Shown here piece after piece: positions 6,426 to 41,576 of a stretch of 50,973 nucleotides of DNA. Made by a program: the position numbers and the translations under genes. This stretch comes from Thermoanaerobaculia bacterium. Lineage in GTDB: Bacteria; Acidobacteriota; Thermoanaerobaculia; Thermoanaerobaculales; Sulfomarinibacteraceae. The notes under the pieces were generated by a model. That model was not told the DNA's origin and did not search any database. It saw only the letters and a list, made by a program, of their open reading frames with translations. Every line of letters starts with the position of its first letter. Within the stretch, counting starts at the first letter, position 1. Where the stretch lies: assembly GCA_027061805.1 (NCBI GenBank), contig JAMOWA010000040.1:1-50973 (forward strand), written 5' to 3'.

Positions 6426-7664
6426 ATGCGTCGACACTGGACCGGAGTCATCGTCCTTGTGGCCGTCGTCGCCCTCGTGTCCACCTTGCCCGCGGGCGCC
6501 GTGGGCTCCAGGTGCGAGGAGTGCCACGCCAGGATCACGCCCCTGCTGGTCAGGGATTTCAACCGCGGCAAGATGGCCGAGACCATGACCTGCGCGGACT
6601 GCCACGGTGAGGAGCACACGGGCGTGGACGACGCCGACAGGGCGACCCTGCCCACCATCGCCACCTGTCGGCAGTGCCACGAGGACCGGGCGGAGCAGTA
6701 TCTGAAGGGCAAGCACGCCAGGGGGTTCCTGGCCATCGAGGCGCTGCCCTTCACCCACGGCCAGCCGGATCCCTACGTGGCCGGGCAGAAGGGCTGCGGC
6801 GGCTGCCACACCCTCGGCCTCGTGGACCAGAAGGCACGGGAGAGCGAGAGCCGGAAGTACTACAGGTACGGCATGGACTGCCAGAACTGCCACACCCGCC
6901 ACGCCTTCTCCATGAGGGAGGCCCGGGAGCCCGAGGCCTGCCAGACCTGCCACATGGGCTTCGACCATCCCCAGTGGGAGATGTGGTCATCCTCCAAGCA
7001 CGGAGTGGCCTACCTCATGGACCGCAAGGCGCACCGGGGGCCCAGGTGCCAGGACTGCCACATGCCCGCCGGAGATCACCGTGTCCGGACCGCCGTGGGC
7101 TTCCTGGGCCTCGACCTGACCACCCAGGATCCCGAGATGCAGAAGTACCAGGCCTCCATCCTGAAGGGCCTGGGCGTGCTCGACGAGAAGGGGGAGTTCA
7201 CGCCACTGCTCGACGTGGTCAAGGCGGGCGACATGGTGCGCCTGGACAGGGCGGACTTCGACGCCGAGCGCAGGCGGATCACCGACCGGTGCAAGGAGTG
7301 CCACGGTGCCAGCTTCGTGGAGGCCAATATCAAGAACGCCGACCTGATGCTCAAGGAGATCAACAAGCTGTTTGCCGAGGCCATCGAGATCGTGGCCGGC
7401 CTGCGGCGCGACGGGATCATCGAGGTCAAGGAGGGCGAGGGGGTCTACCCGCAGCTCCTCCAGTTCTACGAGGTGGACACCCACATCGAGCAGATCCTCT
7501 ACGAGATGTTCATGGACCACCGCATGAAGGCCTTCCAGGCCACCTACCACATGAACCCCGACTACGCCACCTGGTACGGTTACGCCAAGATGAAGAAGGA
7601 CCTGGCCGAGATCAAGGAGCTGGACCGGGAGATGCGGGCCGCTCACGCGGCTGCGGCGAAGTAG
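6426..7664 (+). CDS. Exported octaheme c-type cytochrome, hydroxylamine oxidoreductase (HAO)-like
   Basis: The product (412 residues) has a signal peptide (about 1-25, cleavage near GAVG-S) and exactly eight CxxCH haem sites, at C30, C56, C81, C124, C152, C172, C208 and C289. The SSKHG motif at 189-193 and the long helical C-terminus with NPDYATWYGYAKMKKDL (377-393) fit HAO-family octaheme proteins. No CxxCK site is present, so it is not NrfA or a typical OTR. Family members oxidise hydroxylamine/hydrazine or reduce nitrite/hydroxylamine. Direction depends on a C-terminal tyrosine cross-link, which I cannot assign (Tyr380 and Tyr384 are candidates). The ATG at 6426 has SD GAGGAGGTT. No quinone-linked partner is adjacent, so the electron route is unknown. 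A terminator follows. Confidence 0.85.
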   Translation: MRRHWTGVIVLVAVVALVSTLPAGAVGSRCEECHARITPLLVRDFNRGKMAETMTCADCHGEEHTGVDDADRATLPTIATCRQCHEDRAEQYLKGKHARGFLAIEALPFTHGQPDPYVAGQKGCGGCHTLGLVDQKARESESRKYYRYGMDCQNCHTRHAFSMREAREPEACQTCHMGFDHPQWEMWSSSKHGVAYLMDRKAHRGPRCQDCHMPAGDHRVRTAVGFLGLDLTTQDPEMQKYQASILKGLGVLDEKGEFTPLLDVVKAGDMVRLDRADFDAERRRITDRCKECHGASFVEANIKNADLMLKEINKLFAEAIEIVAGLRRDGIIEVKEGEGVYPQLLQFYEVDTHIEQILYEMFMDHRMKAFQATYHMNPDYATWYGYAKMKKDLAEIKELDREMRAAHAAAAK

Positions 7665-7689
7665 CCGGGACCGGGAGCTCGAACACCTC

Positions 7690-7717
7690 GGGGGCGCTCA
7701 TCGAGCGCCCCTTTCTT
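7690..7717 (+). terminator. Rho-independent terminator after the octaheme cytochrome
   Basis: GGGGCGCT-CATCG-AGCGCCCC stem-loop followed by TTTCTT, 26 nt after the stop codon. Confidence 0.85.
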
Positions 7718-7857
7718 CGTGGTGACGGGGAGCGGCGACGGCGGCGGCAGGATCCGGGTCCGGCAACCCCCTTCCTCTCACGTCATCCGACGGCCCCCCG
7801 GGCGGGGGGGTGGTCGTCTCACGCTTCCCGCGGGATGTCCCGCGGCCAGGTGGACGT

Positions 7858-8889
7858 CTACTCCGTCCGGATCACGTGGGTCTTGGCGATCATGTCGTGG
7901 AGCCCGCGCCTGTCCGGGGTGAACAGGATCATCAGGAACCCGATGTTCATGGTGAACCCGTTCACCATGTACCCCAGGACCCTGAGGATCGCGGTGCCGT
8001 GGCCCGGGGGCTCCACGCCGTCGTCGCGGACCACCTTCAGGTGGAGGAGCTTCTTGCCGGGCGTGGCGCCGGACCTGGCCCAGAAGTGCACGAAGTACCC
8101 GATGGAAAGGGCGAAGGCCAGCAGGTAGCCGAGGCCCATCAGGAGGGCGCCCAGGGCCGGTACCTTCCGCATGAGGACGGCGCCGATGCCCCCGAAGACC
8201 AGCATGACGACGAGGATGCCCGCGGAGACGATGAGGCCGTCGATGAGGTAGGCGGCCAGCCGGGGGAGGAACCCGCCGTACTCGCCGCCCTGCTCCCACG
8301 AGGGTTCCGGCGCGAGGGGAACCCCCGGCGGGGTGGCGGAAGGGACGCTGACCGGAGGTGGCGGCACCGGAGCGGCGACAGGCGGTGGTGGCGGAGCGGG
8401 AGCGGCGACCGGCGGTGGCGGCGGAGCGGGAGCGGCGACCGGCGGTGGTGGCGGAGCCTGCGGAGGCGGTCCGGGGACCGCCTGTGGCTGTGCCGGGGTT
8501 GGAGGCGGCGGTGGCGGGGCCTGGGGGGCCGGGGGTCCCGGTGCCGGCGGCGCCATGGGCTCCACGTCGAACATGACCGTGGCCGCGGGTGCCTCCTCGG
8601 CCTCGAATCGGAGCTCCGCCCGCCCCAGCAGGACCACGTCGCCATGGCTCAGCAGCTGCTCCGTGATCCGCTTCTTGTTCACGAAGGTCCCGTTGGCGCT
8701 TCCCAGGTCCACGAGCAGCCAGCCGCCGTCGCCAGGCATGAGCTTGGCGTGCCGGCGGGAGACGGAGGGCTCGTTGAGCACCACCGTGTTGTCACGGGAC
8801 CGGCCGAGCGTGATCTCCTGGTCGTCGAATTCGATGACCGGGGTGCCCTCCCCGGCGACCTCCGCCTGGACGATGACGAGCTTGGGCAT
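7858..8889 (-). CDS. FHA domain - proline-rich linker - RDD membrane protein
   Basis: The N-terminal FHA domain (about 1-95) has GRS (29-31), SRRHA (44-48) and GSANGTFVN (63-71), the phosphothreonine-peptide binding residues. A linker of about 85 residues is almost pure Pro/Ala/Val and includes three copies of a 30-bp repeat. The C-terminal RDD domain (about 205-343) carries several membrane segments and GATPGKKLLHLKVV. The ATG at 8889 is preceded by AGGAGGTTTCCG; the upstream in-frame ATG at 8934 lacks one. Such proteins probably sit in the inner membrane and recruit phosphorylated partners, but no kinase is encoded nearby. GC-rich inverted repeats at about 7788-7852 follow the stop and may terminate transcription. 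Function is inferred from domains only. Confidence 0.88.
   Translation of the reverse strand: MPKLVIVQAEVAGEGTPVIEFDDQEITLGRSRDNTVVLNEPSVSRRHAKLMPGDGGWLLVDLGSANGTFVNKKRITEQLLSHGDVVLLGRAELRFEAEEAPAATVMFDVEPMAPPAPGPPAPQAPPPPPPTPAQPQAVPGPPPQAPPPPPVAAPAPPPPPVAAPAPPPPPVAAPVPPPPVSVPSATPPGVPLAPEPSWEQGGEYGGFLPRLAAYLIDGLIVSAGILVVMLVFGGIGAVLMRKVPALGALLMGLGYLLAFALSIGYFVHFWARSGATPGKKLLHLKVVRDDGVEPPGHGTAILRVLGYMVNGFTMNIGFLMILFTPDRRGLHDMIAKTHVIRTE
8371..8460. repeat. Three tandem 30-bp repeats within the FHA-RDD linker
   Basis: Units at 8371-8400, 8401-8430 and 8431-8460 differ by a few bases and encode a PPPPPVAAPA-like decapeptide on the minus strand. In-frame length variation is likely. Confidence 0.85.
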
Positions 8890-9005
8890 CGGAAACCTCC
8901 TGCCAACTCCCGGAACGAACCACCGGACCACCATCCCCGAGACCGGCCAGGGCGAGGCAATCCAGACGAGTCGTCCCCTGGCGTTCCTGCGAGCCTGTTT
9001 TTCTC

Positions 9006-10779: not shown

Positions 10780-12738
10780 GTGTTCAGGACGTATGGAATC
10801 CAGCGCAAGCTCGTGCTTGCCATCGTCATCGTTCTTCTGCTCCTCCTGGGTGGCCTGGGGCTCGCCGCTGTCAAGTACATGGGTGACATGACCCGGTCCA
10901 GGGTGTACGGGGCGGCGCTCCGGAACGTGAACATCGGGGCTCGCCGGATCGTCGGCTTCCTCTCCGAGAGGTCACGGATCGTCCTGGCCCTGACGGAGGA
11001 TCCCCAGCTCCTCGACTGGGCCGAGGCGCGGAACAGTGACACCAGGGACCTCGGGGGTGATCGGGATTACCGTCAGCTCATCGAGTACCTGAGACGGCTC
11101 ACGGACTCGGATCCCATGGTGCTGTCGACCTTCTTTGCCCTCAACGGCACGGGGGAGTATTTCAGGGAGGACGGGAAGGTCGTTCCCGTGGAGGGGTACG
11201 ACGCCCGGACAAGGCCCTGGTGGAAGGACGCCGTTCGCGAGGACAGGCTGTACGTGGCAGAGCCCATCACGGACCTGGACCGCGGAACGGTCTCGGTGAC
11301 CGTCCAGACAACGTTTCGCAATGACGACGGGGCATTGCTCGGGGTGGCAGGAGTGGATGTGCTGCTGACCACCGTGGGCGAGGTGGTGAACCAGACCAAG
11401 TACGAGGGCGAGGGCGTGGGTTTTCTCATCGGTGGCGATGGGAAGATCGTCTACCACCCCGACGTGAAGGTGGGAGGTGACGGAGCCTCGGATCGTCCCA
11501 TGGCTGGCGAGGTGTTTGCCGACGGGAAGGGTTTTTCCGGAGCTCTCCAGCGGATGCAGGGGGGTGAGAAGGGTCTTGACCTCGTGACCTGGAAGGGGAA
11601 GCGGTACTATCTCTTCTTCGCCCCCGTGGTGGCCCACGAGCCGGCCATGAACTGGTCCCTGGGTCTCCTGATTCCCGAGGGCGTCGTGTCGGGCCCCATC
11701 AACCGGGTCAGGTTGACGTCGATGCTGGGCGTGCTGCTGATCATCGGAATCGTCACGATGATCCTGATCAGCCTGACGTCGTCGATGGTGGTGCAGCCGG
11801 TGAACCGCCTGGTGGAACGGTTCCGGGACATCGCCAGCGGCAAGGGTGACCTGACCCACACCGTCGAGGTGGACTCCCAGGACGAGCTCGGGGAGCTGGG
11901 GTCGCTGTTCAACACCTTCATGGCTGGCATCCGCGAGGACATCTCCTCGGTGGCCACCCTGTCGGAGACCCTGGCAGGTGCCTCGGACCACCTCTTCAGG
12001 CTTTCCCAGCAGATTGCCAGCGCCACCGAGGAGACCTCCAGCCAGGCGGGCATGGTGTCCGCAGCTGCCGAGCAGGTGAGCACCAACGTGCAGTCCGTGG
12101 CCACCGCCACGGAGGAGATGAGCTCCAGCATCCGTGAGATTGCCCGGAGCACCAGCGATGCAGCCCGGGTGGCCAACGAGGCCGTGGTCATCGCGGATGA
12201 CACGGTTCATCGTTTCGACGAGCTCATGTCCAGCGGTGACAAGATCGCCCAGGTGGTGGAGGTCATCCGGACCATCGCGGACCAGACCAACCTCCTGGCG
12301 CTCAACGCCTCCATCGAGGCCGCCCGGGCCGGCGAGGCCGGGAAGGGCTTCGCGGTGGTGGCCGGGGAGGTCAAGGCGCTGGCGAACCAGACCTCCGAGG
12401 CCACTGGAGAGATCGAGTCCAGCGTCCTGGCGATCCGGAAGTTCACCATGGCGGCGGGCGAGGCCATCGAGAAGGTCACGGAGATCATCGGCAAGATCAA
12501 CGAGATCCAGACGGTGATTGCCTCGGCGGTGGAGCAGCAGAGTGCCACCACATCCGAGATCGGCCAGAACGTGGCAGAGGCCGCGCGCGGGGTGGACGAC
12601 ATCGCCCGGAGCATCGCGAGCTTCGCCGAGGTGGCCCAGGAGACGGCCTCCGGGGCGAGCTCCATCCAGGAGAGTGCGGAGTCGGTGGCGGAGACCGCAG
12701 CCCAGCTCAAGGCCATCGTCGGGAGGTTCCGATTCTGA
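10780..12738 (+). CDS. Methyl-accepting chemotaxis protein with dCache sensor
   Basis: This 652-residue transmembrane receptor has TM1 at about 11-30, a periplasmic double-Cache sensor with RTRPWW (about 146-151) and [11 protein letters not shown]2 near 305-330, HAMP, then the signalling domain. The hairpin tip [20 protein letters not shown] lies at about 507-526. RTRPWW-type Cache domains often bind amino acids or related small ligands. No C-terminal CheR-tethering pentapeptide is present (ends GRFRF). GTG 10780 is the only in-frame start just before the TM1 leader; the preceding GGGGGT is a modest SD. It is the first gene of the operon hpt-cheAWYBR-cheX, so it is probably the dedicated receptor for this array. 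Confidence 0.93.
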
Positions 12739-12789
12739 TGGTTCCGGCGTGCTCCGCGGGTTGTGGTGTCGGCCCGGAAATGTGAAGGG

Positions 12790-13167
12790 ATGAGCGTGGA
12801 CGAGATCCTGGCCGAGTTCCTGGAGGAGGCGGGCGAGATGCTGGAGCAGCTCCGCACCGTCCTGGACGAGGCCGGGTCCGGTGGGAGGTTCCGGTGGGCG
12901 GACGCCTACCGCTCGGTCCACGTGATCCGTGGTGCGGCGGGTTTCCTCGCCATGCCCCGGGTGGAGCGGATCGCCGCGGCGGGCGAGCTGCTGTTCGGGC
13001 GGCTGGATTCCGATGCCATCGAGGTCTCCGGAGCATGTCTGGACGCAGGTCGGCGAATCCACCGGGCCCTCGATGAGCTTCTCGATGTGGTGGGCCAGGG
13101 GGGGGCGGAACCGCAGGGGGACGACACACCACTCCTGGAAGCGCTGCACCGGGTGGTGGGCACATGA
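12790..13167 (+). CDS. Stand-alone Hpt (histidine phosphotransfer) domain protein
   Basis: This 125-residue helical protein aligns by motif with Hpt domains. SVHVIRGAAGFLAM places the phosphorylatable His at residue 44, with Arg in place of the usual Lys (HxxRG rather than HxxKG). It resembles the P1 domain of the downstream CheA and could be a paralogous duplication acting as an extra phosphate acceptor or sink. The start is uncertain: ATG 12790 is abutted by GAAGGG with no spacing, while GTG 12763 would add nine residues. Its stop overlaps the cheA start (ATGA), so the two are translationally coupled. Confidence 0.75.
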   Translation: MSVDEILAEFLEEAGEMLEQLRTVLDEAGSGGRFRWADAYRSVHVIRGAAGFLAMPRVERIAAAGELLFGRLDSDAIEVSGACLDAGRRIHRALDELLDVVGQGGAEPQGDDTPLLEALHRVVGT

Positions 13168-15404
13168 CCGGCCGGGGTACCGGAGGCCAGGGTGGTTCCA
13201 TGGGTGAGCTGGATCCCATCGTCCGGGAGTTCCTGGCCGAGAGCCAGGAGAACCTGGAGCAGGTGGATCGGGACCTGGTGAACCTGGAGGGAGGCTCCAC
13301 CGACCAGGGATTGCTCGACAGGGTCTTCCGGGCCATCCACACCATCAAGGGGACCTGCGGCTTCCTCGGCTTTGGCAGGCTCGAGGCCCTCAGCCATGCC
13401 GGAGAGAGCCTGCTCGGGCACCTCAGGGACAGAAAGCGGAAGGTCACACCTGACATCTCGGCGGCCCTGATGGAAATGGTCGATGCTCTCCGGAGTGTCA
13501 TGCAGGCCATCGAACGGACCGGGTCGGACGAGAGGCCCGGAGTGGATCTCGACGGTCTCATGCAACGGCTCACGGACCTTGCCCCGGTGGAGGATCCGGG
13601 CGAGGCAGGACGTGGTGGTGGGATCGCCGGAGAGGGTGTCGGCAGCGGATCGGGAAGCCGGTCCGGTGGCGGAGCGGAGGGGAAGGTCGCGGTGGTGAAG
13701 GAGGGGGCGGACTCCTTCGTGCGGGTGGATGTGCGGGTGCTGGACCGGCTCATGGACCTGGCCGGAGAGCTGGTCCTGGTCCGGAACCAGCTGGTGGGGC
13801 GCGAAAACGGATCCCGGGAGCGTTCGCCGTCCCTGCAGCAGCTCGACGGCATCGTGGGAGAGCTCCAGGATGCCGTCATGAGGACCCGGCTCCAGCCCGT
13901 GAGCCGCATCTGGGGACGGTTCCCCAGGCTCGTGCGGGACCTGGCAGCAGCATGCGGCAAGATGGTGAAGCTCCAGATGGAGGGGGGATCCACGGAGCTG
14001 GACCGGAGCCTCATCGAGGCCATCCGGGATCCCCTCACCCACCTGGTGCGCAACGCGGTGGACCATGGCATCGAGGCTCCCGACTGCCGGTTGTCGGCGG
14101 GGAAACCCCTGGAAGGTCTCCTGTGGCTCCGCGCCTACCACGAGGCGGGCAAGGTGGTGATCGAGGTGGGGGATGACGGTGCGGGGATCGACACCGAGGC
14201 CGTCCTGGAGCGTGCCGTGGAACGGGGGCTCGTGTCACCGGACGCGGCACGGACCATGGGCCCCGGAGAGATCGAGCAGCTGATCTTCAGACCGGGCTTC
14301 ACCACCACGGAGACTGTCTCCCATCTCTCCGGAAGAGGCGTGGGCCTCGACGTGGTGCGCACCAACATCGAACGGCTGAACGGGCACGTGGAGGTGGAGA
14401 CCACACCGGGCGAGGGTACGGTGTTCCGCCTCACCATTCCCCTGACCCTGGCCATCCTTCAGGTCGTGGTGGTGGAGTGCGCTGGCCAGCGGTTCACCAT
14501 CCCGCAGGTGGCCATCTGTGAGATGATCCGACCGGGCGCTGCGGACAGTGGTCCGGGGATCGAGATGGTCCACGGCGCACCGGTCTTCCGTGTTCGCGGC
14601 CGCCTTCTCACGCTCGTGGATCTCGGTGTGGAGCTCGGGCTCCGTGAGGAGGTCGGGGACGATGGCGTGATCGTGGTGGCCGAGGCCGACGGGGGGGAGT
14701 ACGGCCTGATCGTGGACAGGGTGTTCGATACCCAGGAAATCGTGGTGAAACCGTTAGGCCGGCTCCTCGAGCATCTTTCCGTCTACGCCGGAGCCACCAT
14801 CATGGGCGATGGCCGGGTGGCCCTGATCCTGGACGTTCCCGGGCTGGCCCAGCGGACCAATCTTTCCAGCGAGGAGACCGTCGTGCCGGTTCCCCGGGAA
14901 GCGGAGAGTGTGGAGGAGGACCTTGAGTCGTGGCTGGTGTTCCGGAGCCCCGACAATGGCAGGATGGCGGTTCCCCTGCACCAGGTGGTCCGCCTGGAGC
15001 ACCTCCCGGGACACACCGTCGAGCATCTCGGGGGAAGCCGGGCCATCCAGTACAGGGGCGACATGCTCCCGCTGGTCTTCGTCTTCGACCATCTGGAGGA
15101 GCGGCGGAAGGTCAGGCGTGTGGAGCACGATGGGGAGCGCGCCCAGAACCTCGTGGTCTACGAGCACGGCGGGGGCACGGTGGGGCTGGTGGTGGGGCGG
15201 GTGCTCGACATCGTGAAGCAGACCGTGGCGGTCCGGCGTCCCTCGAGCCGCGAGGGAATCGTCGAGTGCGCCGTGATCCGGGACCGCCTGACGGAGATCC
15301 TGGATGTGGACTGGGTGGTCCGTGCGGCGGATCCCCCGGTGCTGGGACCGCCCTCACATCTCCTGGTGGTCCATGACGAGGGAGGGGACCAGTGGAGCAG
15401 CTGA
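13164..15404 (+). CDS. cheA: Chemotaxis histidine kinase CheA with two C-terminal CheW domains, no P2
   Basis: The product is 746 residues (734 if translation starts at ATG 13200). P1/Hpt carries AIHTIKGTCGFLGF with His59. A Gly/Ser-rich linker (about 155-172) stands where a P2 domain would be. Dimerisation follows, then the ATPase with N box HLVRNAVDHG (about 292-301), G1 DDGAGID (about 337) and G2 GRGVGLD (about 391). Two consecutive CheW-like domains (about 425-570 and 585-735) replace the usual one. The kinase autophosphorylates on the P1 His and passes phosphate to CheY and CheB. The absent P2 suggests direct transfer, and the extra CheW may change array geometry. Start overlaps hpt by ATGA; the end overlaps cheW by 13 nt. 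Confidence 0.95.
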   Translation: MTGRGTGGQGGSMGELDPIVREFLAESQENLEQVDRDLVNLEGGSTDQGLLDRVFRAIHTIKGTCGFLGFGRLEALSHAGESLLGHLRDRKRKVTPDISAALMEMVDALRSVMQAIERTGSDERPGVDLDGLMQRLTDLAPVEDPGEAGRGGGIAGEGVGSGSGSRSGGGAEGKVAVVKEGADSFVRVDVRVLDRLMDLAGELVLVRNQLVGRENGSRERSPSLQQLDGIVGELQDAVMRTRLQPVSRIWGRFPRLVRDLAAACGKMVKLQMEGGSTELDRSLIEAIRDPLTHLVRNAVDHGIEAPDCRLSAGKPLEGLLWLRAYHEAGKVVIEVGDDGAGIDTEAVLERAVERGLVSPDAARTMGPGEIEQLIFRPGFTTTETVSHLSGRGVGLDVVRTNIERLNGHVEVETTPGEGTVFRLTIPLTLAILQVVVVECAGQRFTIPQVAICEMIRPGAADSGPGIEMVHGAPVFRVRGRLLTLVDLGVELGLREEVGDDGVIVVAEADGGEYGLIVDRVFDTQEIVVKPLGRLLEHLSVYAGATIMGDGRVALILDVPGLAQRTNLSSEETVVPVPREAESVEEDLESWLVFRSPDNGRMAVPLHQVVRLEHLPGHTVEHLGGSRAIQYRGDMLPLVFVFDHLEERRKVRRVEHDGERAQNLVVYEHGGGTVGLVVGRVLDIVKQTVAVRRPSSREGIVECAVIRDRLTEILDVDWVVRAADPPVLGPPSHLLVVHDEGGDQWSS

Positions 15405-15826
15405 CCACGTTCCGCCTGGGCAGCCACTGGTGCGGCATCCCGCTGGAGACGGTACAGGAGGCGGTGGTGGCGGGTGAGGTGACCCCGGTCCCGCTGTCTC
15501 CGCCCGAGGTCGTGGGCCTGATCAACCTCCGGGGACGGATCATCACCGTGGTGGACCTGGCCCCTGTCCTCCATCTCGAGACAGCGGAGTCCGGAGGCGC
15601 CCGGATGCAGGTGGTACTTGACGGGACGTGGCGTGACGTGAGCCTCCTTGTGGATCGCATGGACGATGTGATCACGGTGGAGGAGGAGAATCTGGAGCCC
15701 CCACCGGAGACCCTGGACGAGGGCATCCGGAACCTGATCACGGGGGCGTTCGAACGGCCGGGAGGCATCGTGCTGTCCCTGGACCTGGAGCAAATCCTGG
15801 CCTCGGTGCTCGGGAGGGATCGGTGA
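15392..15826 (+). CDS. cheW: Chemotaxis coupling protein CheW
   Basis: This 144-residue protein consists of one CheW SH3-like domain (LTTFRLGSHWCGIPLETVQE, LINLRGRIITVVDLAPVL, DDVITVEEENLEPPP), the canonical scaffold linking receptors to CheA. GTG 15392 lies inside the 3' end of cheA, consistent with coupled translation. It is a third CheW module in addition to the two in CheA, so the array likely has unusual CheW stoichiometry. Confidence 0.93.
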   Translation: MEQLTTFRLGSHWCGIPLETVQEAVVAGEVTPVPLSPPEVVGLINLRGRIITVVDLAPVLHLETAESGGARMQVVLDGTWRDVSLLVDRMDDVITVEEENLEPPPETLDEGIRNLITGAFERPGGIVLSLDLEQILASVLGRDR

Positions 15827-15866
15827 CGCGACGGAGCTGGCCGTGCCATGCAATGTGGAGGTGGCG

Positions 15867-16238
15867 ATGCGGGTGCTGGTGATCGACGATTCGAGGGCCA
15901 TGCGGGCCATTCTCGGCAAGCTCATGTCCGAGCTCGGCTTCGACGTGGTGACGGCGGCCCACGGGCTGGAAGGCCTGGAGCGGCTGGAGGAGGACGATGC
16001 CATCCGCCTGGTGCTGGTGGACTGGAACCTCCCGGAGATGAACGGCTACGAGTTCACCCTGGCCGTGCGTTCGGACTCGGGCTACGATGACGTCCGGCTG
16101 ATCATGGTGACGACGGAGACCGAGCAGGCGAGCGTCCAGAAGGCGCTCGACGCCGGTGTGGACGAGTACGTCATGAAGCCCTTCACCCGGGAGACCCTGG
16201 TGGAGAAGCTCTCGCTCCTGGATCTCCTGGAGGAGTAG
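15867..16238 (+). CDS. cheY: CheY-like single-domain response regulator
   Basis: This 123-residue receiver domain has the acidic pair D7/D8, phosphoacceptor D52 in VDWNLPEMNG, a Thr at 82/83 and Lys104 in VMKPFT, so all catalytic residues are present. ATG 15867 is preceded by GGAGGTGGCG; the frame could extend to GTG 15843 but without an SD. It is the output regulator of this operon. With no flagellar genes nearby, the target could be a flagellar motor, pili or a non-motility process. Confidence 0.93.
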   Translation: MRVLVIDDSRAMRAILGKLMSELGFDVVTAAHGLEGLERLEEDDAIRLVLVDWNLPEMNGYEFTLAVRSDSGYDDVRLIMVTTETEQASVQKALDAGVDEYVMKPFTRETLVEKLSLLDLLEE

Positions 16239-16244
16239 GGGGCC

Positions 16245-17312
16245 GTGCCGAAGATCCGGGTTCTCGTGGTGGACGACTCGGTGGTGATCCGCCGGGTGGT
16301 GACCCAGCTGCTCTCGGAGGACGAGGATCTCGAGGTGGTGGGCACGGCGGCGAACGGGGAGATTGCGCTGGCGAAGGTGGACCAGGTCAGTCCGGACATC
16401 GTCGTCCTGGACGTGGACATGCCCGAGATGGACGGCCTGGAGACCCTCACCCACCTCAAGCTGAAGAACCCCGAGCTCCCCGTCATCATGTTCAGCGGTC
16501 TCACCGAGCGCGGGGCGGACATCACCCTGGAGGCTCTCTTCCGTGGAGCGCTGGACTATGTCACCAAGCCCGGGAACTTCAGTGATGCCGAGGCCGCTCT
16601 CGCCGCCATCCGCCTGGAGCTCATTCCCAAGATCAAGATCGTCTGCAAGCCCGTGCGGGTCCGGCGCCGCCCCGAGCGGATCACGCCGGCGCGGACACCG
16701 GAGCATGGCGGTGGGGTCGTGGATGCCGTGGTGGTCGCGGCATCCACAGGGGGACCGGCGGCGCTGGCCTCGGTCCTTGACTCCTTCCAGGGCCCGCCTC
16801 CCGTCCCGGTGCTGGTGGTCCAGCACATGCCTCCGGTCTTCACCCGGTACCTGGCCATGCAGCTGGCCACCAAGACGGGGCTCAAGGTGGAGGAGGGCAG
16901 GGACGGGGTGCCGGTCCGGCCCGGCGAGGTGTGGATCGCCCCTGGAGATCACCACATGCTCGTGGAGAGGGCAGGGGAGAGGGTCCGGCTGCGGCTGGAC
17001 CGTGGTCCCCGGGAGAACTCCCTGAGACCTGCCGCCGACGTCCTGTTCCGGTCTGCTGTCCGGGCCTGGGGTGGTGGCGTGCTGGGCATGGTGCTCACCG
17101 GGATGGGCCGGGACGGACTGCGCGGAGCGGAGGCGATTCACCAGGCGGGCGGGAGCATCGTGGTCCAGGACGAGGCCTCCAGCGTGGTCTGGGGCATGCC
17201 GGGCAACATCGTGGCCGGCGGCCTGGCCGACACGGTGCTTCCCGCGGACGAGCTGGGGCCGTGGCTGGTCGCCAGGCTCGAGGCCGGCCGGGAAGGCAGC
17301 AGGGACGGATGA
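16245..17312 (+). CDS. cheB: Protein-glutamate methylesterase CheB
   Basis: This 355-residue protein combines an N-terminal receiver (D9/D10, phosphoacceptor D56, K near 103 in VTKPGNF) with a C-terminal methylesterase/deamidase domain. Catalytic triad: Ser167 in AASTGGPAAL, His194 in VQHMPPVF, Asp290 in GMGRDGL. It demethylates receptor glutamates for adaptation and is activated by CheA phosphorylation. GTG 16245 is 6 nt after the cheY stop. The stop overlaps the cheR start by ATGA. Confidence 0.95.
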   Translation: MPKIRVLVVDDSVVIRRVVTQLLSEDEDLEVVGTAANGEIALAKVDQVSPDIVVLDVDMPEMDGLETLTHLKLKNPELPVIMFSGLTERGADITLEALFRGALDYVTKPGNFSDAEAALAAIRLELIPKIKIVCKPVRVRRRPERITPARTPEHGGGVVDAVVVAASTGGPAALASVLDSFQGPPPVPVLVVQHMPPVFTRYLAMQLATKTGLKVEEGRDGVPVRPGEVWIAPGDHHMLVERAGERVRLRLDRGPRENSLRPAADVLFRSAVRAWGGGVLGMVLTGMGRDGLRGAEAIHQAGGSIVVQDEASSVVWGMPGNIVAGGLADTVLPADELGPWLVARLEAGREGSRDG

Positions 17313-18124
17313 GGCCCGAGAGCTTCGCCTTTCTCCAGGATCTCCTGCACCGGGAGACCGGCATCGTCATGGACGACGGGAAGGAGTACCTGGTGCTCAC
17401 CCGGTTGCGGACCGTCGTGAGGAGCGAGGGCCTCTCGGGAGTGGACGAGCTGGTGGAGCTGCTCAGGTCGCGTCCGCGCCATCCGCTCCGCCGGCGGATC
17501 CTGGAGACCCTGATCACCACCGAGACGTCGTTCTTCAGGGACGTGCGTCCCTTCACGAGCCTCAAGGAGGTCCTGATCCCACTCCTCGTGGAGCGACGTG
17601 CCCCGAGCCGGACGCTCCGGTTCTGGTCCGCAGCCTGCTCCACGGGCCAGGAACCCTACAGCCTCGCCATGCTGATCCGGGAGCATTTCCCCGAGCTGGA
17701 AGAATGGCGGATCAAGATCCTGGCGTCGGATGTCTCCTCCGAGGTCCTGGAGCGGGCCCGGACCGGAATCTACAGCCAGATGGAGGTCAATCGCGGCGTG
17801 CCGACCCCGCTGCTGATGAAGTACTTCCGGAGGGAGGGGCTGAACTGGGTGGTGAACGGAGAGATTCGCAGGATGGTGGATTTCGTCGAGATCAACCTGG
17901 CTGGCGAGCTGCCGAAGCTCCCCGAGATGGACATCATCTTCCTGCGCAATGTGCTGATCTACTTCCGCGAGGATGTCCGGCGGAAGGTTCTGGAACGGGT
18001 GGCCGGGCTGCTCCGGTCTGACGGGTACCTCTTTGTCGGGGGGGCGGAGACGCTGATCACGCATCAGGATCTGTTCGAGCGGGTCCAGATCTCCAACACG
18101 TCGTGCTTCCGGCCCCGCCGGTGA
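17309..18124 (+). CDS. cheR: Chemotaxis protein methyltransferase CheR
   Basis: This 271-residue SAM-dependent methyltransferase modifies receptor glutamates. It has the helical CheR N-domain (about 1-75) and the SAM-binding domain with FWSAACSTGQEPYSLAML (about 103-120), LASDVSSEVLERARTGIY and FLRNVLIYF. ATG 17309 overlaps the cheB TGA. It opposes CheB. Since the operon's receptor lacks a C-terminal pentapeptide, CheR should act by direct recognition of methylation helices. Confidence 0.95.
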   Translation: MRPESFAFLQDLLHRETGIVMDDGKEYLVLTRLRTVVRSEGLSGVDELVELLRSRPRHPLRRRILETLITTETSFFRDVRPFTSLKEVLIPLLVERRAPSRTLRFWSAACSTGQEPYSLAMLIREHFPELEEWRIKILASDVSSEVLERARTGIYSQMEVNRGVPTPLLMKYFRREGLNWVVNGEIRRMVDFVEINLAGELPKLPEMDIIFLRNVLIYFREDVRRKVLERVAGLLRSDGYLFVGGAETLITHQDLFERVQISNTSCFRPRR

Positions 18125-18141
18125 CATGGGAGAATGGGATC

Positions 18142-18600
18142 ATGATTCACGAGGACGAGATTGCCCAGATCGTCACGAGCATCTGGACGTCGATTCTGGA
18201 CCGCATGGTCGAGGTGGACGAGACCTGCTGTGACGAACCGTGGTCCATGCCCGGCCGGACGCTCACCGGATGCGTCCAGCTGACAGGGGATTTCGAGGGG
18301 GCCACGCTGCTGTTCTGCACGGCGGAGCTGGCCCGCTCACTGGCCTCCGTGATGTTCTCCGAGGATCCCGAGAGCCTGTCGTCCGAGGAGATCCGCGATG
18401 CCCTGGGAGAGCTGGTGAACATGGTGGCCGGCAACATCAAGCCCATGCTCGAGGGAAGCTCTCGCCTGTCGCTGCCCTCGGTGGTGGAAGGCGCGGACTA
18501 CGAGGTCATTGTCCCTGGCAGCCGTGTGGTCTGCAAGGTGGGCTTTCGCTGCGAGGGCGAGCCGCTGCTGGTCACCTTCGTGGAGCGTCAGAACGGCTGA
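18142..18600 (+). CDS. cheX: CheX-type CheY-phosphate phosphatase
   Basis: This 152-residue protein belongs to the CheC/CheX/FliY family. The phosphatase helix motif is visible as E90-x2-N93 within DALGELVNMVAGNIK. One such motif and the small single-domain size fit CheX rather than CheC. It would dephosphorylate CheY-P and end signalling; no CheD or CheZ is encoded here. ATG 18142 has GGGAGAATGGG upstream, and the frame to 18103 would overlap cheR without an SD. It is the last gene of the operon, followed by 208 bp without a recognised gene before the convergent glycosyltransferase gene. Confidence 0.85.
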   Translation: MIHEDEIAQIVTSIWTSILDRMVEVDETCCDEPWSMPGRTLTGCVQLTGDFEGATLLFCTAELARSLASVMFSEDPESLSSEEIRDALGELVNMVAGNIKPMLEGSSRLSLPSVVEGADYEVIVPGSRVVCKVGFRCEGEPLLVTFVERQNG

Positions 18601-33377: not shown

Positions 33378-34514
33378 ATGGGATTCGTCGGACGGCTCGA
33401 GGACCTGGCGGTCACGGATATCTTCCAGATCATCGCGCTTGGCAAGCGCACGGGGAAGCTGACGCTCACCCGCCGGAAGGAACAGGGCCTCGTGGTATTC
33501 CGCAACGGCGGCATCGTGTTCTGCCAGACCAACGCCGTCCACGAGACCATGGGCAGCATCCTGGTGAACCGGAACATCATCGACGAGGCCACGCTCCTTG
33601 CGGCGCTGGACCGGCAGCAGTCCAGCGAGGGACGTCCGCTCGGGAGCATCCTGGTGGAGATGGAGGCCATCTCACCCGAGGAGCTCCAGGCGGTGGCGTA
33701 CGAGCAGGTCAAGACGGTCCTGGCGGAGCTCCTCAACTGGGACAGCGGCGTCTTCCAGTTCGAGCCCGTGGAGCTGGACGAGGTCTTCAGCACCGCCTTC
33801 GATGCGAGCGAGTTCCTCATGGAGGACGGCTTCCGTCCCGAGGAGGTGCTCCTGGATGTCCTCACCCGGGTGGACCGGAGCCAGATGGAAGATCTCGAGG
33901 TGGAGGACCACGAGGCGGCCCCGCTGAAGACCCTGCGGGAGGAGCCTCCCTCCGCGGAACAGGAGAAACGGCCGGCACGGACCCGCGGTTTCGTCTCGCT
34001 CAAGGGCATCATGCGGGAGCTCAGGAACCGGCCGGTGACGTTCACGGGAGAGCTGACGCTCCTCCTCCTCCGGTACACCGCCGAGCTCGTCAACCGCTCC
34101 GTCCTCTTCGCCGTGAGGGGCGACACCCTGGTGGGAATCGGCCAGTTCGGCCTGGAGGGTGGCGACCTTCCTCCCGACCAGCGGGTTCGCTCCCTGGCCA
34201 TCCCCATCCACGCCCCATCCGTGCTCGGTGAGGTTGTCTCCAAGCGCGAGCCCTACCGCGGCCGCCTGGAGCGCACCCTCTGGAACAACGAGCTGATCCG
34301 GAAGCTCGGTGGCATGGTCCCCCGGGAGGTCATCGCGGTGCCCATCGTGGTGGACGGCGCCGTGGTGGCGGTGATCTACGGGGACAACCTGCCCTCCGAG
34401 ACGCCCATCGGTCCTACCGAGGGCCTGGAGCTCCTCATGCTCGAGGCCGGCCTCATCATCGAGAAGAACCAGCTGGAGGCGCAGCTCCGCAAGGTCCGCA
34501 CCGCCCGCAGGTAG
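33378..34514 (+). CDS. DUF4388 (PATAN) domain protein
   Basis: This 378-residue cytoplasmic protein begins with a DUF4388/PATAN domain (FVGRLEDLAVTDIFQIIALGKRTGKLTL, VFRNGGIVFCQTN, about 1-115), including the type II secretion GspE-N-like helical repeat (GSILVNRNIIDEATLLAALDRQ, about 55-76). The C-terminal half (about 215-370) is GAF-like (TAELVNRSVLFAVRGDTLVGIGQFGLEGG, VIYGDN). PATAN proteins act as adaptors with response regulators, so it may connect to two-component or chemosensory signalling. ATG 33378 has AGGAC upstream. A TATGCTAT -10-like stretch occurs near 33318. Partners unknown. Confidence 0.82.
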   Translation: MGFVGRLEDLAVTDIFQIIALGKRTGKLTLTRRKEQGLVVFRNGGIVFCQTNAVHETMGSILVNRNIIDEATLLAALDRQQSSEGRPLGSILVEMEAISPEELQAVAYEQVKTVLAELLNWDSGVFQFEPVELDEVFSTAFDASEFLMEDGFRPEEVLLDVLTRVDRSQMEDLEVEDHEAAPLKTLREEPPSAEQEKRPARTRGFVSLKGIMRELRNRPVTFTGELTLLLLRYTAELVNRSVLFAVRGDTLVGIGQFGLEGGDLPPDQRVRSLAIPIHAPSVLGEVVSKREPYRGRLERTLWNNELIRKLGGMVPREVIAVPIVVDGAVVAVIYGDNLPSETPIGPTEGLELLMLEAGLIIEKNQLEAQLRKVRTARR

Positions 34515-38933: not shown

Positions 38934-41576
38934 GTGAAGCTCATCACCACGCACCTGTCGGCGGACTTCGACGCCTTCGCGGCTGCAGTGTGCACCGTCA
39001 GGCTGTACCCGGACCACCGGGTGCTGTTCCCGGGCTCCCAGGAGGCGGCGGTGCGCCGATTCCTGGCGGAGCAGCCCGTGGAGTACCCCGAGGTCCGGCT
39101 CCGGGAGGCCCGCAGGGAGCGGCTGGAGCACGTGGTGGTGGTGGACACGCGGAACCCGCGGAGGCTGGGCGAGGCCTGGGAGCTCATCCGGAGGGACCAC
39201 CCGACCGTGGTGCTCATCGACCACCACGTGGAGGAGGACGAGGCGCTGGGTGCCGACGAGATCGTGGCCGCCGAGGCGGGTGCCACCTGCACCGTGGTGG
39301 CGGGGCTCTTCCGGGAGCAGGGCCTGGAGCCCACCCCGGAGGAGGCCTCGCTGCTGCTCATGGGGATCTACGAGGACACCGGAGGACTCTCGTTCCGTGA
39401 CACCACTCCCGAGGACCTCCGGACCGCGGCGTGGCTGGTGGAGCGCGGGGGCTCCCTGGGCTGGGTACGCCGGTGGGTGCTGCGGGGCCTGGAGCCCTCG
39501 CAGTTCGAGCTGCTCAACCGCTTGCTGGAAGGGACCCACGAGGTGCTGCTCCACGGCGTCCCCGTGTCCATCGCCACGGTGGAGGTGGACCAGTACCAGG
39601 AGGAGGCGGCCTACGTGGTCCACCGGTGGATGGAGACCTTCGACCTCCCCGTGGCCGTGGCGCTGCTGGTCCGGCCGCCCCACATCAACATCATCCTGCG
39701 GTCCCGGCTCCCCGGCCTCCACGTGGGCCGGGTGGCCCAGCGCTTCGGGGGGGGCGGTCACCCCACGGCGGCCTCGGCCCGGGTCACGGGCCGCATGGCC
39801 GTGGAGGTGCGGGAGGAGCTGATCCGGGCCCTGGACGAGGAGCTCCCCCCGCCGGTGACGGCCCGGGAGGTGGCCCTGGGGCACATCTTCACGGTGCCGG
39901 CGTTCTTCACGGTGGAGCAGGCCAAGGAGCGGATGAACCACCTCCGGGTGAACGCCCTGCCGGTGGAGGAGCCCATGGGGGACCGCTTCACGGGCCTGGT
40001 GACGCGGCAGATCCTCGACCAGGCCCTGGCCCACGGCCTGGGCGACCGCCCGGTGAGCACGGTCATGCAACCCGAGGTGCCCGCCGTACCGGGCGACACG
40101 CCGGTGGAGGAGCTCCGCGACCTCTTCCTGGAGCGCAACTACCGCTTCGTGGTGGTGGAGGAGGAGGGGAGGCCCGTCGGGATCGTCACCCGCATGGAGC
40201 TGTTCCGGAGGCTCTTCGAGCTCCAGCACGCCGCCGGCGGGACGCTGGACAACCGGATCCGGGGGGTTCGCCAGGTGACCCAGTCGGTCTCGCGGCTGCT
40301 CCGCGAGGTGCTCCCGGTCTGGGTCCAGGAGGTGCTCCACGAGGCCCGGGCTGTGGCGGAGGCGCGGGGCGAGCAGGCCTACCTGGTGGGGGGCGTGGTG
40401 CGGGATCTGCTCCTGGGACGTCCCAACGAGGACGTGGACCTGGTGGTGGAGGGCGACGGCATCGCCTTCGCCCGGGCCCTGGCCGAGCGGACGGGCGGGA
40501 AGGTCCACCCCCACGAGCCGTTCCTCACGGCGGTGGTGACGCTACCCTCCGGCCACAAGGTGGACGTGGCCTCGGCCCGCACGGAGTTCTACCGCACACC
40601 GGCCGCCCTGCCCGAGGTGGAGACCTCGCTGATCCGCCAGGACCTCTACCGGAGGGATTTCACCATCAACGCCCTGGCCGTGGCCCTCTCGGGGGACCGA
40701 TTCGGCACGCTCGTCGACTTCTTCGGTGGCCGGAAGGACCTGAGCCACAAGGAGATCCGTGTCCTCCACTCGCTCTCGTTCATCGATGACCCCACCCGGG
40801 CCATCCGGGCCGTCCGCTACGCCCGGCGCCTGGATTTCACCATCGCCGCCGACACCCGGCACCTCATCGCCACGGCCCTCCGTGAGGGTGTCTTCGACCG
40901 CCTCTCGGGCCAGCGTCTCCGGGCCGAGATGGCTCTGCTGCTGGCCGAGCCCCACCCTCCGGCCTCCCTGGCCATGCTGGCGGAGCTCGGCCTGCTCGCG
41001 GCGATCGTGCCCGGGGTCCGCTGGGACGCGAAGCTGGAGGCATTCCTCCTGGAGGTCCAGAGCTCCGTGCGGTGGTTCGAGCTCGAGCGGCTCGGGGAGG
41101 TGCCCGAGCCGTGGTTCCTCTACCTGGGCGCCCTGACCCTCTTCGGTGACGAGGACACCCCGGAGCAGCTGGCAGCCCGCCTGGCCCTGGCGGGGGCCTC
41201 CCGGCGGACCTTCGTGGCGCTCCCGGAGTCGGTGACCCGGTTGAAGGAGGTCGTGGCCCGCGCGGGGCGGCGGAGCGGGAGGGTCCGTGCGGTGGAGGGG
41301 TCCGACACCACGGCGCTCCTCCTGGCCATGGCGGGACTGGATCCGGAGGGCCGGTGGCTCCTGGCGGACGCCGCGGAGGCCGCGGCACGCATCCGGCCCC
41401 CCATCCGGGGCGCGGACCTCCTCGAGGCCGGGGTGCCGCCCGGGCCCCACGTGGGGCGGGCCCTCCGGGCTGCACGGGACGCGCTGGTGGACGGCGAGGT
41501 CGACGAGGGTGGTGTGCTGGAGTACGCGCTGGAGAAGGCCGTGGCCCTCCAGGCCACGGGGGGAGGGGCCACATGA
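38934..41576 (+). CDS. cca: DHH-CBS-CBS-polynucleotide adenylyltransferase fusion (A/CCA-adding type)
   Basis: This 880-residue protein joins three parts. Residues about 1-310 are a DHH/DHHA1 phosphoesterase (D11, D13, D96-H97-H98, GGGGH 272-276). Residues about 325-440 form two CBS domains. Residues about 460-880 are a class II nucleotidyltransferase with LVGGVVRDLLLG (484-495), EDVDLVVEG and RRDFTINALAV. The same fusion is known from Geobacter-, Aquifex- and Thermotoga-type bacteria, often as an A-adding enzyme that works with a separate CC-adding enzyme. The DHH part may trim RNA or hydrolyse a dinucleotide, and the CBS pair may sense adenylates. GTG 38934 follows TAGAAT by 6 nt. It overlaps the next gene by ATGA. 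Confidence 0.93.
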   Translation: MKLITTHLSADFDAFAAAVCTVRLYPDHRVLFPGSQEAAVRRFLAEQPVEYPEVRLREARRERLEHVVVVDTRNPRRLGEAWELIRRDHPTVVLIDHHVEEDEALGADEIVAAEAGATCTVVAGLFREQGLEPTPEEASLLLMGIYEDTGGLSFRDTTPEDLRTAAWLVERGGSLGWVRRWVLRGLEPSQFELLNRLLEGTHEVLLHGVPVSIATVEVDQYQEEAAYVVHRWMETFDLPVAVALLVRPPHINIILRSRLPGLHVGRVAQRFGGGGHPTAASARVTGRMAVEVREELIRALDEELPPPVTAREVALGHIFTVPAFFTVEQAKERMNHLRVNALPVEEPMGDRFTGLVTRQILDQALAHGLGDRPVSTVMQPEVPAVPGDTPVEELRDLFLERNYRFVVVEEEGRPVGIVTRMELFRRLFELQHAAGGTLDNRIRGVRQVTQSVSRLLREVLPVWVQEVLHEARAVAEARGEQAYLVGGVVRDLLLGRPNEDVDLVVEGDGIAFARALAERTGGKVHPHEPFLTAVVTLPSGHKVDVASARTEFYRTPAALPEVETSLIRQDLYRRDFTINALAVALSGDRFGTLVDFFGGRKDLSHKEIRVLHSLSFIDDPTRAIRAVRYARRLDFTIAADTRHLIATALREGVFDRLSGQRLRAEMALLLAEPHPPASLAMLAELGLLAAIVPGVRWDAKLEAFLLEVQSSVRWFELERLGEVPEPWFLYLGALTLFGDEDTPEQLAARLALAGASRRTFVALPESVTRLKEVVARAGRRSGRVRAVEGSDTTALLLAMAGLDPEGRWLLADAAEAAARIRPPIRGADLLEAGVPPGPHVGRALRAARDALVDGEVDEGGVLEYALEKAVALQATGGGAT

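Follow-up and report, generated by a model that had tools for sequence, protein, structure and literature searches.

The window, a 50,973-nucleotide stretch of DNA from a Thermoanaerobaculia bacterium, is contig C40 of a 3.10 Mb genome in 68 contigs that is 96.85% complete. Eight genes on the same strand occupy positions 10780–18600 in the order mcp, hpt, cheA, cheW, cheY, cheB, cheR and cheX, with gaps of no more than about 60 bases or with overlaps. Pfam confirms the domain make-up of all eight. They are listed here together with one gene further along the window.

10780..12738, plus strand: methyl-accepting receptor (MCP) with TM, periplasmic dCache_1, TM, HAMP and MCPsignal hairpin (Pfam)
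12796..13167, plus strand: stand-alone Hpt of the CheA-P1 type, motif HVIRG (PF01627, E 7.8e-11)
13164..15404, plus strand: CheA with P1 (HTIKG), low-complexity linker, H-kinase_dim, HATPase_c and two CheW domains (Pfam)
15392..15826, plus strand: CheW (Pfam)
15843..16238, plus strand: CheY, a single receiver domain (Pfam; alternative start ATG 15867)
16245..17312, plus strand: CheB, receiver and methylesterase (Pfam)
17309..18124, plus strand: CheR methyltransferase (Pfam; start ATG 17309, ATGA overlap with cheB)
18142..18600, plus strand: CheX-type CheY-P phosphatase (Pfam; start ATG 18142, motif in GELVNMVAGN)
33378..34514, plus strand: DUF4388 protein, inferred candidate output partner, with homologues that neighbor the che cluster in relatives

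The initial annotation had described one receptor, a CheA without P2 but with two CheW domains, a separate CheW, an extra Hpt with an HxxRG motif and a CheX, all overlapping or tightly spaced, and on each of these points, coordinates included, it is borne out. The receptor gene is single, and Pfam finds no P2 match in CheA. In the NCBIfam scan the Hpt had no match, and no CheA or CheW model exceeded its cut-off. For the Hpt we prefer the start GTG 12796 over ATG 12790 and GTG 12763, on the basis of a Shine-Dalgarno-like GAAGGG sequence and of the homologues. CheA starts at ATG 13164, in an ATGA overlap with the Hpt stop, or at ATG 13200. The acidic pair, the phospho-acceptor Asp and the Lys motif of CheY are all visible by eye, as are the catalytic motifs of CheB and CheX, the latter being presumably of the ExxN type. 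A scan of the region for promoters and terminators found nothing; the absence of terminators fits a single operon without proving it. Two side observations concern other proteins of the window. A single reading frame at 38934-41573 fuses DHH, DHHA1, CBS and poly(A) polymerase head domains, and the protein at 7861-8934 on the minus strand joins an FHA domain to a C-terminal RDD membrane domain.

The domain order of CheA is P1-P3-P4-CheW-CheW, and each CheW model scores 191 bits. A survey of actinobacterial flagella, in its excerpted text (PMC10746217), gives as marks of the F5 chemosensory class the A-W...B-R gene order, an extra CheW domain on CheA and 38H receptors. The A-W...B-R order is present in the window cluster. 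According to the excerpted text of PMC10782961, more than half of CheAs lack P2 and about 8% carry two CheW domains, nearly all of these being F5; we therefore do not regard the three CheW modules as unusual. Orthologues of the two-CheW CheA were found in 13 other genomes among the 59 searched. All 13 loci have CheW, CheY and CheB after CheA; CheR was detected at 12 of them and CheX at 10, and contig ends cut short two of the three that lack CheX. The receptor points to the same class. Its coil, counted from the tip Glu to the C-terminus, is 134 residues long, as in all four family MCPs and in all nine MCPs sampled from actinobacterial F5 loci, with which it aligns gap-free. Two of three Pelosinus MCPs have 155 residues, while the third and the MCP of contig C51 are uncomparable. 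The coil length equals that of F5-linked 38H receptors, a label that is the general statement of the excerpted PMC10746217 and not a value recomputed for these MCPs.

The CheA phylogeny called for by the initial annotation supports the assignment in part. A tree of 99 CheA cores places the CheA of the window in a clade of 36 rows (SH-aLRT 97) with its family relatives and the actinobacterial F5-type CheAs; the clade also holds CheAs from Verrucomicrobiota, Myxococcota, Acidobacteriota and Cyanobacteriota, among others. A separate clade holds the alphaproteobacterial two-CheW CheAs and has no supported join to the actinobacterial and window clade, so that a single F5 clade is unrecovered. The assignment thus rests on architecture, gene order and receptor length, with partial support from phylogeny. 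We explain the cluster as an F5-class chemosensory operon whose CheA lacks a receiver domain, and consider this explanation, taken as a whole, fairly probable. The class itself is defined by phylogeny and architecture, and the letter F names its usual output, flagellar motility. The initial annotation had set its reading against an ordinary flagellar class of identical layout. The class is indeed one named as flagellar, but the layout is not identical, because the solo Hpt lies outside the usual F5 arrangement.

The presence of CheX is not odd either. Sixty-six CheAs with a match to a second CheW model passed the locus filter, in which the second match could coincide with the first CheW (at least L112 and L150 have a single CheW). 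CheX was found at 19 of the 39 filtered loci whose CheA has no fused receiver domain and was absent from 26 of the 27 whose CheA has one; we treat this as a pattern rather than a test, as the rows are related and 8 of the 39 receiver-less loci also lack a detected CheR, so some loci are cut. None of the three features, a P2-less CheA, three CheW modules and CheX, is out of the ordinary in an F5 system whose CheA has no receiver domain.

The solo Hpt has a narrow distribution. A profile built from three solo Hpts detects such proteins in 3 of 37 genomes of the order (E 2e-59 to 1e-63). Among the matches listed, all others sit in frames of 449 to 942 residues, and the best of them (1e-21) is the P1 of a two-CheW CheA. 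The solo Hpts form one clade with support 100 and a stem length of 1.63 in a tree that is built on few columns and has many open forks. The CheAs of the three hosts, which span three genera, also form one clade (support 99, CheA tree). Pairwise identity among the three Hpts is 43-52%. A short gene that adjoins cheA and forms a single clade could be a decaying relic of a P1 duplication, but the frame is intact, the core motif is conserved across three genera and the predicted fold is compact and confident; we consider decay very improbable.

The active site of the solo Hpt is distinctive. His, Lys, Gly, His and Glu at the equivalents of positions 48, 51, 52, 67 and 70 (which we take as E. coli CheA numbering) are found in 94 of 94 CheA P1 domains, a set biased to canonical P1s since, beyond the 14 orthologues, only rows matching the P1 model at E <= 1e-4 were compared, a filter that drops weak Hpts, the one in the C51 CheA among them. 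The same positions are His, Arg, Gly, Ala and Glu in all three solo Hpts. Both K51R and H67A thus leave the K51-H67-E70 network incomplete, with Glu kept. In alignments the Lys and His are also conserved in the solved P1 domains of Thermotoga, E. coli/Salmonella and Rhodobacter CheA3. These two changed residues, together with the fast divergence seen in the long stem, could suggest a non-catalytic decoy or inhibitor that binds CheY or the P4 domain of CheA and tunes flux without carrying phosphate. We find this improbable, as all three proteins retain the phospho-accepting His, the Gly after it and the Glu at 43-52% pairwise identity.

The predicted fold is P1-like. AlphaFold2 models the solo Hpt as a five-helix bundle (pLDDT 94), and the top PDB matches of the model are CheA P1 domains, the first being the CheA3 P1-CheY6 complex (TM 0.89), although no match reached E 0.001. 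Motif and model together give the helical bundle and the HxxK/RG His of the CheA P1 type. By its sequence, the solo Hpt belongs to the CheA-type P1 domains but has diverged from them, retaining the phospho-accepting His and the Glu equivalent to E70. In Thermotoga CheA the network reportedly tunes the reactive His, and the Glu is said to matter most. From the kept His and Glu, the P1-like model and this work we expect the Hpt His to be phosphorylatable, with a changed donor preference. The protein is most likely an added phospho-acceptor, a putative relay or sink. The phosphate branch or sink suggested in the initial annotation is a possible reading. As the residues around its His are unlike those of every compared CheA P1, we favor the CheY-P side as the source of phosphate: the Hpt may be loaded from a response regulator such as CheY-P rather than directly by CheA, which we propose tentatively. 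Direct loading by CheA could also occur, because K51R is conservative and other Hpt families function without an H67 equivalent.

In one form of direct loading the solo Hpt would be a second CheA substrate, phosphorylated in trans by P4 and feeding CheY or CheB, so raising the phosphotransfer of the P2-less CheA. The P1-type predicted fold, the retained His and key Glu, and the overlap or abutment of hpt with cheA are consistent with this, and the excerpted text of PMC10782961 states that an Hpt domain works when freed, and that its overexpression can offset the lack of P2. Nevertheless, the two residues altered near the His in all three solo Hpts are the ones invariant in every compared CheA P1, and eleven relatives that share the CheA architecture manage without a solo Hpt. 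We regard a second-substrate role as somewhat unlikely. A stand-in for a missing P1 was rejected, since CheA has its own HTIKG P1.

The genome gives some indication of the output. The initial annotation had noted no flagellar genes nearby, and this extends to the whole genome: FliG_C, the sole flagellar marker behind our inference of flagellum absence, was found in 0 of 59 related genomes, this one included, while the same search was positive in 4 of 14 control genomes. The flagellar motility in the name of the class therefore probably has no counterpart here. Pilus genes are likewise lacking among the scanned genes of the window, as had been noted, but the type IVa pilus genes pilB, pilT, pilC, pilS, pilR, pilM, pilN and pilO and a pilQ-like secretin lie on contigs C60 and C11. 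The description of the array as self-contained is right in part: the genome has one other MCP and, as the proposed search for further che clusters revealed, one other cluster. The whole genome contains two MCPs and five CheW-domain matches, three of the latter in the 10780-18600 cluster. The second cluster lies on contig C51 (7150-12520 of locus L022, C51:2000-19000) and comprises CheW, MCP, a CheA with receiver domain and CheR; CheB was not found at this cluster. Its MCP has a C-terminal sensor-like region and its CheR a long C-terminal extension.

A further lead comes from the gene neighborhood. A DUF4388 protein of about 400 residues adjoins the cluster or lies within a few kb of it in 7 of 13 relatives. 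In L056, L061 and L063 its gene is the immediate neighbor of cheX; in L059, L060, L064 and L065 it is part of a module that also encodes a receiver protein and a CheX-like protein. This module, which lies 3' of cheX on the opposite strand and is conserved in part in L057, comprises a DUF4388 protein, a single receiver protein and a CheX/CheC-like protein. In the same four loci the CheX/CheC-like protein has an N-terminal extension, and a second DUF4388 protein carries a V4R-like or receiver-like region. The homologue in the window is 15 kb from cheX. Nearness by chance is possible, as the genome itself has 13 DUF4388 matches. We take DUF4388 to be a relative of PATAN, a domain found in pilus regulators of cyanobacteria. 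A connection of DUF4388 with pili is a lead drawn by analogy with these cyanobacterial PATAN proteins. In the excerpted text of the review PMC7690835, the pilus motor is given as the presumed target of PATAN response regulators.

The FliG result, the type IVa pilus genes and the DUF4388 neighborhood together suggest that the output is probably not a flagellum and possibly pili. The system could instead, like ACF-class systems, control a non-pilus output (c-di-GMP, gene expression or polysaccharide). The scanned window genes include no pilus gene, and Pfam finds no output domain inside the operon, which agrees with such an output; the pilus machinery elsewhere in the genome, the lack of detected FliG and the DUF4388 linkage argue against it, and we hold it as a possible but not preferred alternative.

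In the mechanism that we propose, the MCP would sense a small molecule via its dCache domain and form an array with CheW and with CheA, which would contribute its own two CheW domains. CheA would phosphorylate CheY and CheB, CheR and CheB would adapt the receptor, and CheX would dephosphorylate CheY. The output would probably be a surface machine other than a flagellum, with type IV pili as one possibility and the DUF4388 partner as a possible link. The solo Hpt would accept phosphoryl groups and act as a relay or sink between response regulators. The most specific version, an F5 array rewired to type IV pili via DUF4388 with a free-Hpt His-Asp-His-Asp relay from CheY-P to another response regulator in one clade of a flagellum-less lineage, is in our view quite improbable. 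Overall, the operon is of an ordinary F5 type; what sets it apart is its unusual setting and an accessory Hpt, confined to one clade, whose active site is distinctive. If this is true, a class named for flagella works in a lineage without a detected flagellar switch gene, which is relevant to the way in which chemosensory arrays come to serve new outputs. The solo Hpt would then be a natural P1 paralogue that kept His and Glu and lost two otherwise invariant neighbors, and would be useful for asking which residues make P1 a CheA substrate as opposed to a general phospho-carrier.

A search of the open-licence literature turned up no earlier report of a flagellum-free lineage with an F5 system, nor of a complete CheA accompanied by an additional free Hpt, and a literature search on the P1 hydrogen-bond network and on orphan Hpt proteins in che systems gave nothing on point. 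Some loci carry Hpt domains in other arrangements. In Pirellula L147 a separate Hpt gene precedes a two-CheW, receiver-bearing CheA; we rejected it as a parallel since its Hpt protein (7148-7975) continues into a further C-terminal region, STAS-like on visual inspection. We also rejected L094, whose CheA spans two ORFs, because the split lies inside CheA itself and is probably a frameshift. Within che clusters, L139:14083-15045 (Nitrospinaceae) encodes an Hpt-CheW fusion and L108:13849-14850 (Bdellovibrionaceae) an Hpt fused with a receiver domain. In L082 (Planctomycetaceae) and L123 (Deltaproteobacteria, Myxococcota) CheA has two fused Hpt domains.

The known F5 systems of Azospirillum, Rhodospirillum centenum, Caulobacter and Actinobacteria likewise have a two-CheW CheA, the A-W...B-R order and a receptor of 38H length, and some actinobacterial and other F5 loci include CheX as the window does. 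The window differs in its extra stand-alone Hpt, in the lack of detected FliG in its genome and relatives and, compared with most of the alphaproteobacterial F5 members, in a CheA without a receiver domain. The top structural match of the Hpt model, the P1 of Rhodobacter sphaeroides CheA3 (PDB entries 3kyi/3kyj), keeps the active-site Lys and His where the solo Hpt has Arg and Ala in the alignment; CheA3 does not autophosphorylate, as the excerpted text of PMC10782961 states. The bipartite CheA systems described there (Berry et al. 2023) also place a single-domain Hpt gene beside cheA. However, in the systems of that excerpt the Hpt replaces an absent P1, whereas the window CheA retains an intact P1. 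Multi-Hpt CheAs, mainly of the ACF and Tfp classes and also that of L082, share with the window the use of more than one Hpt per chemosensory kinase system, but their Hpts are fused in one chain, usually with a receiver domain, while the second Hpt of the window is a free protein.
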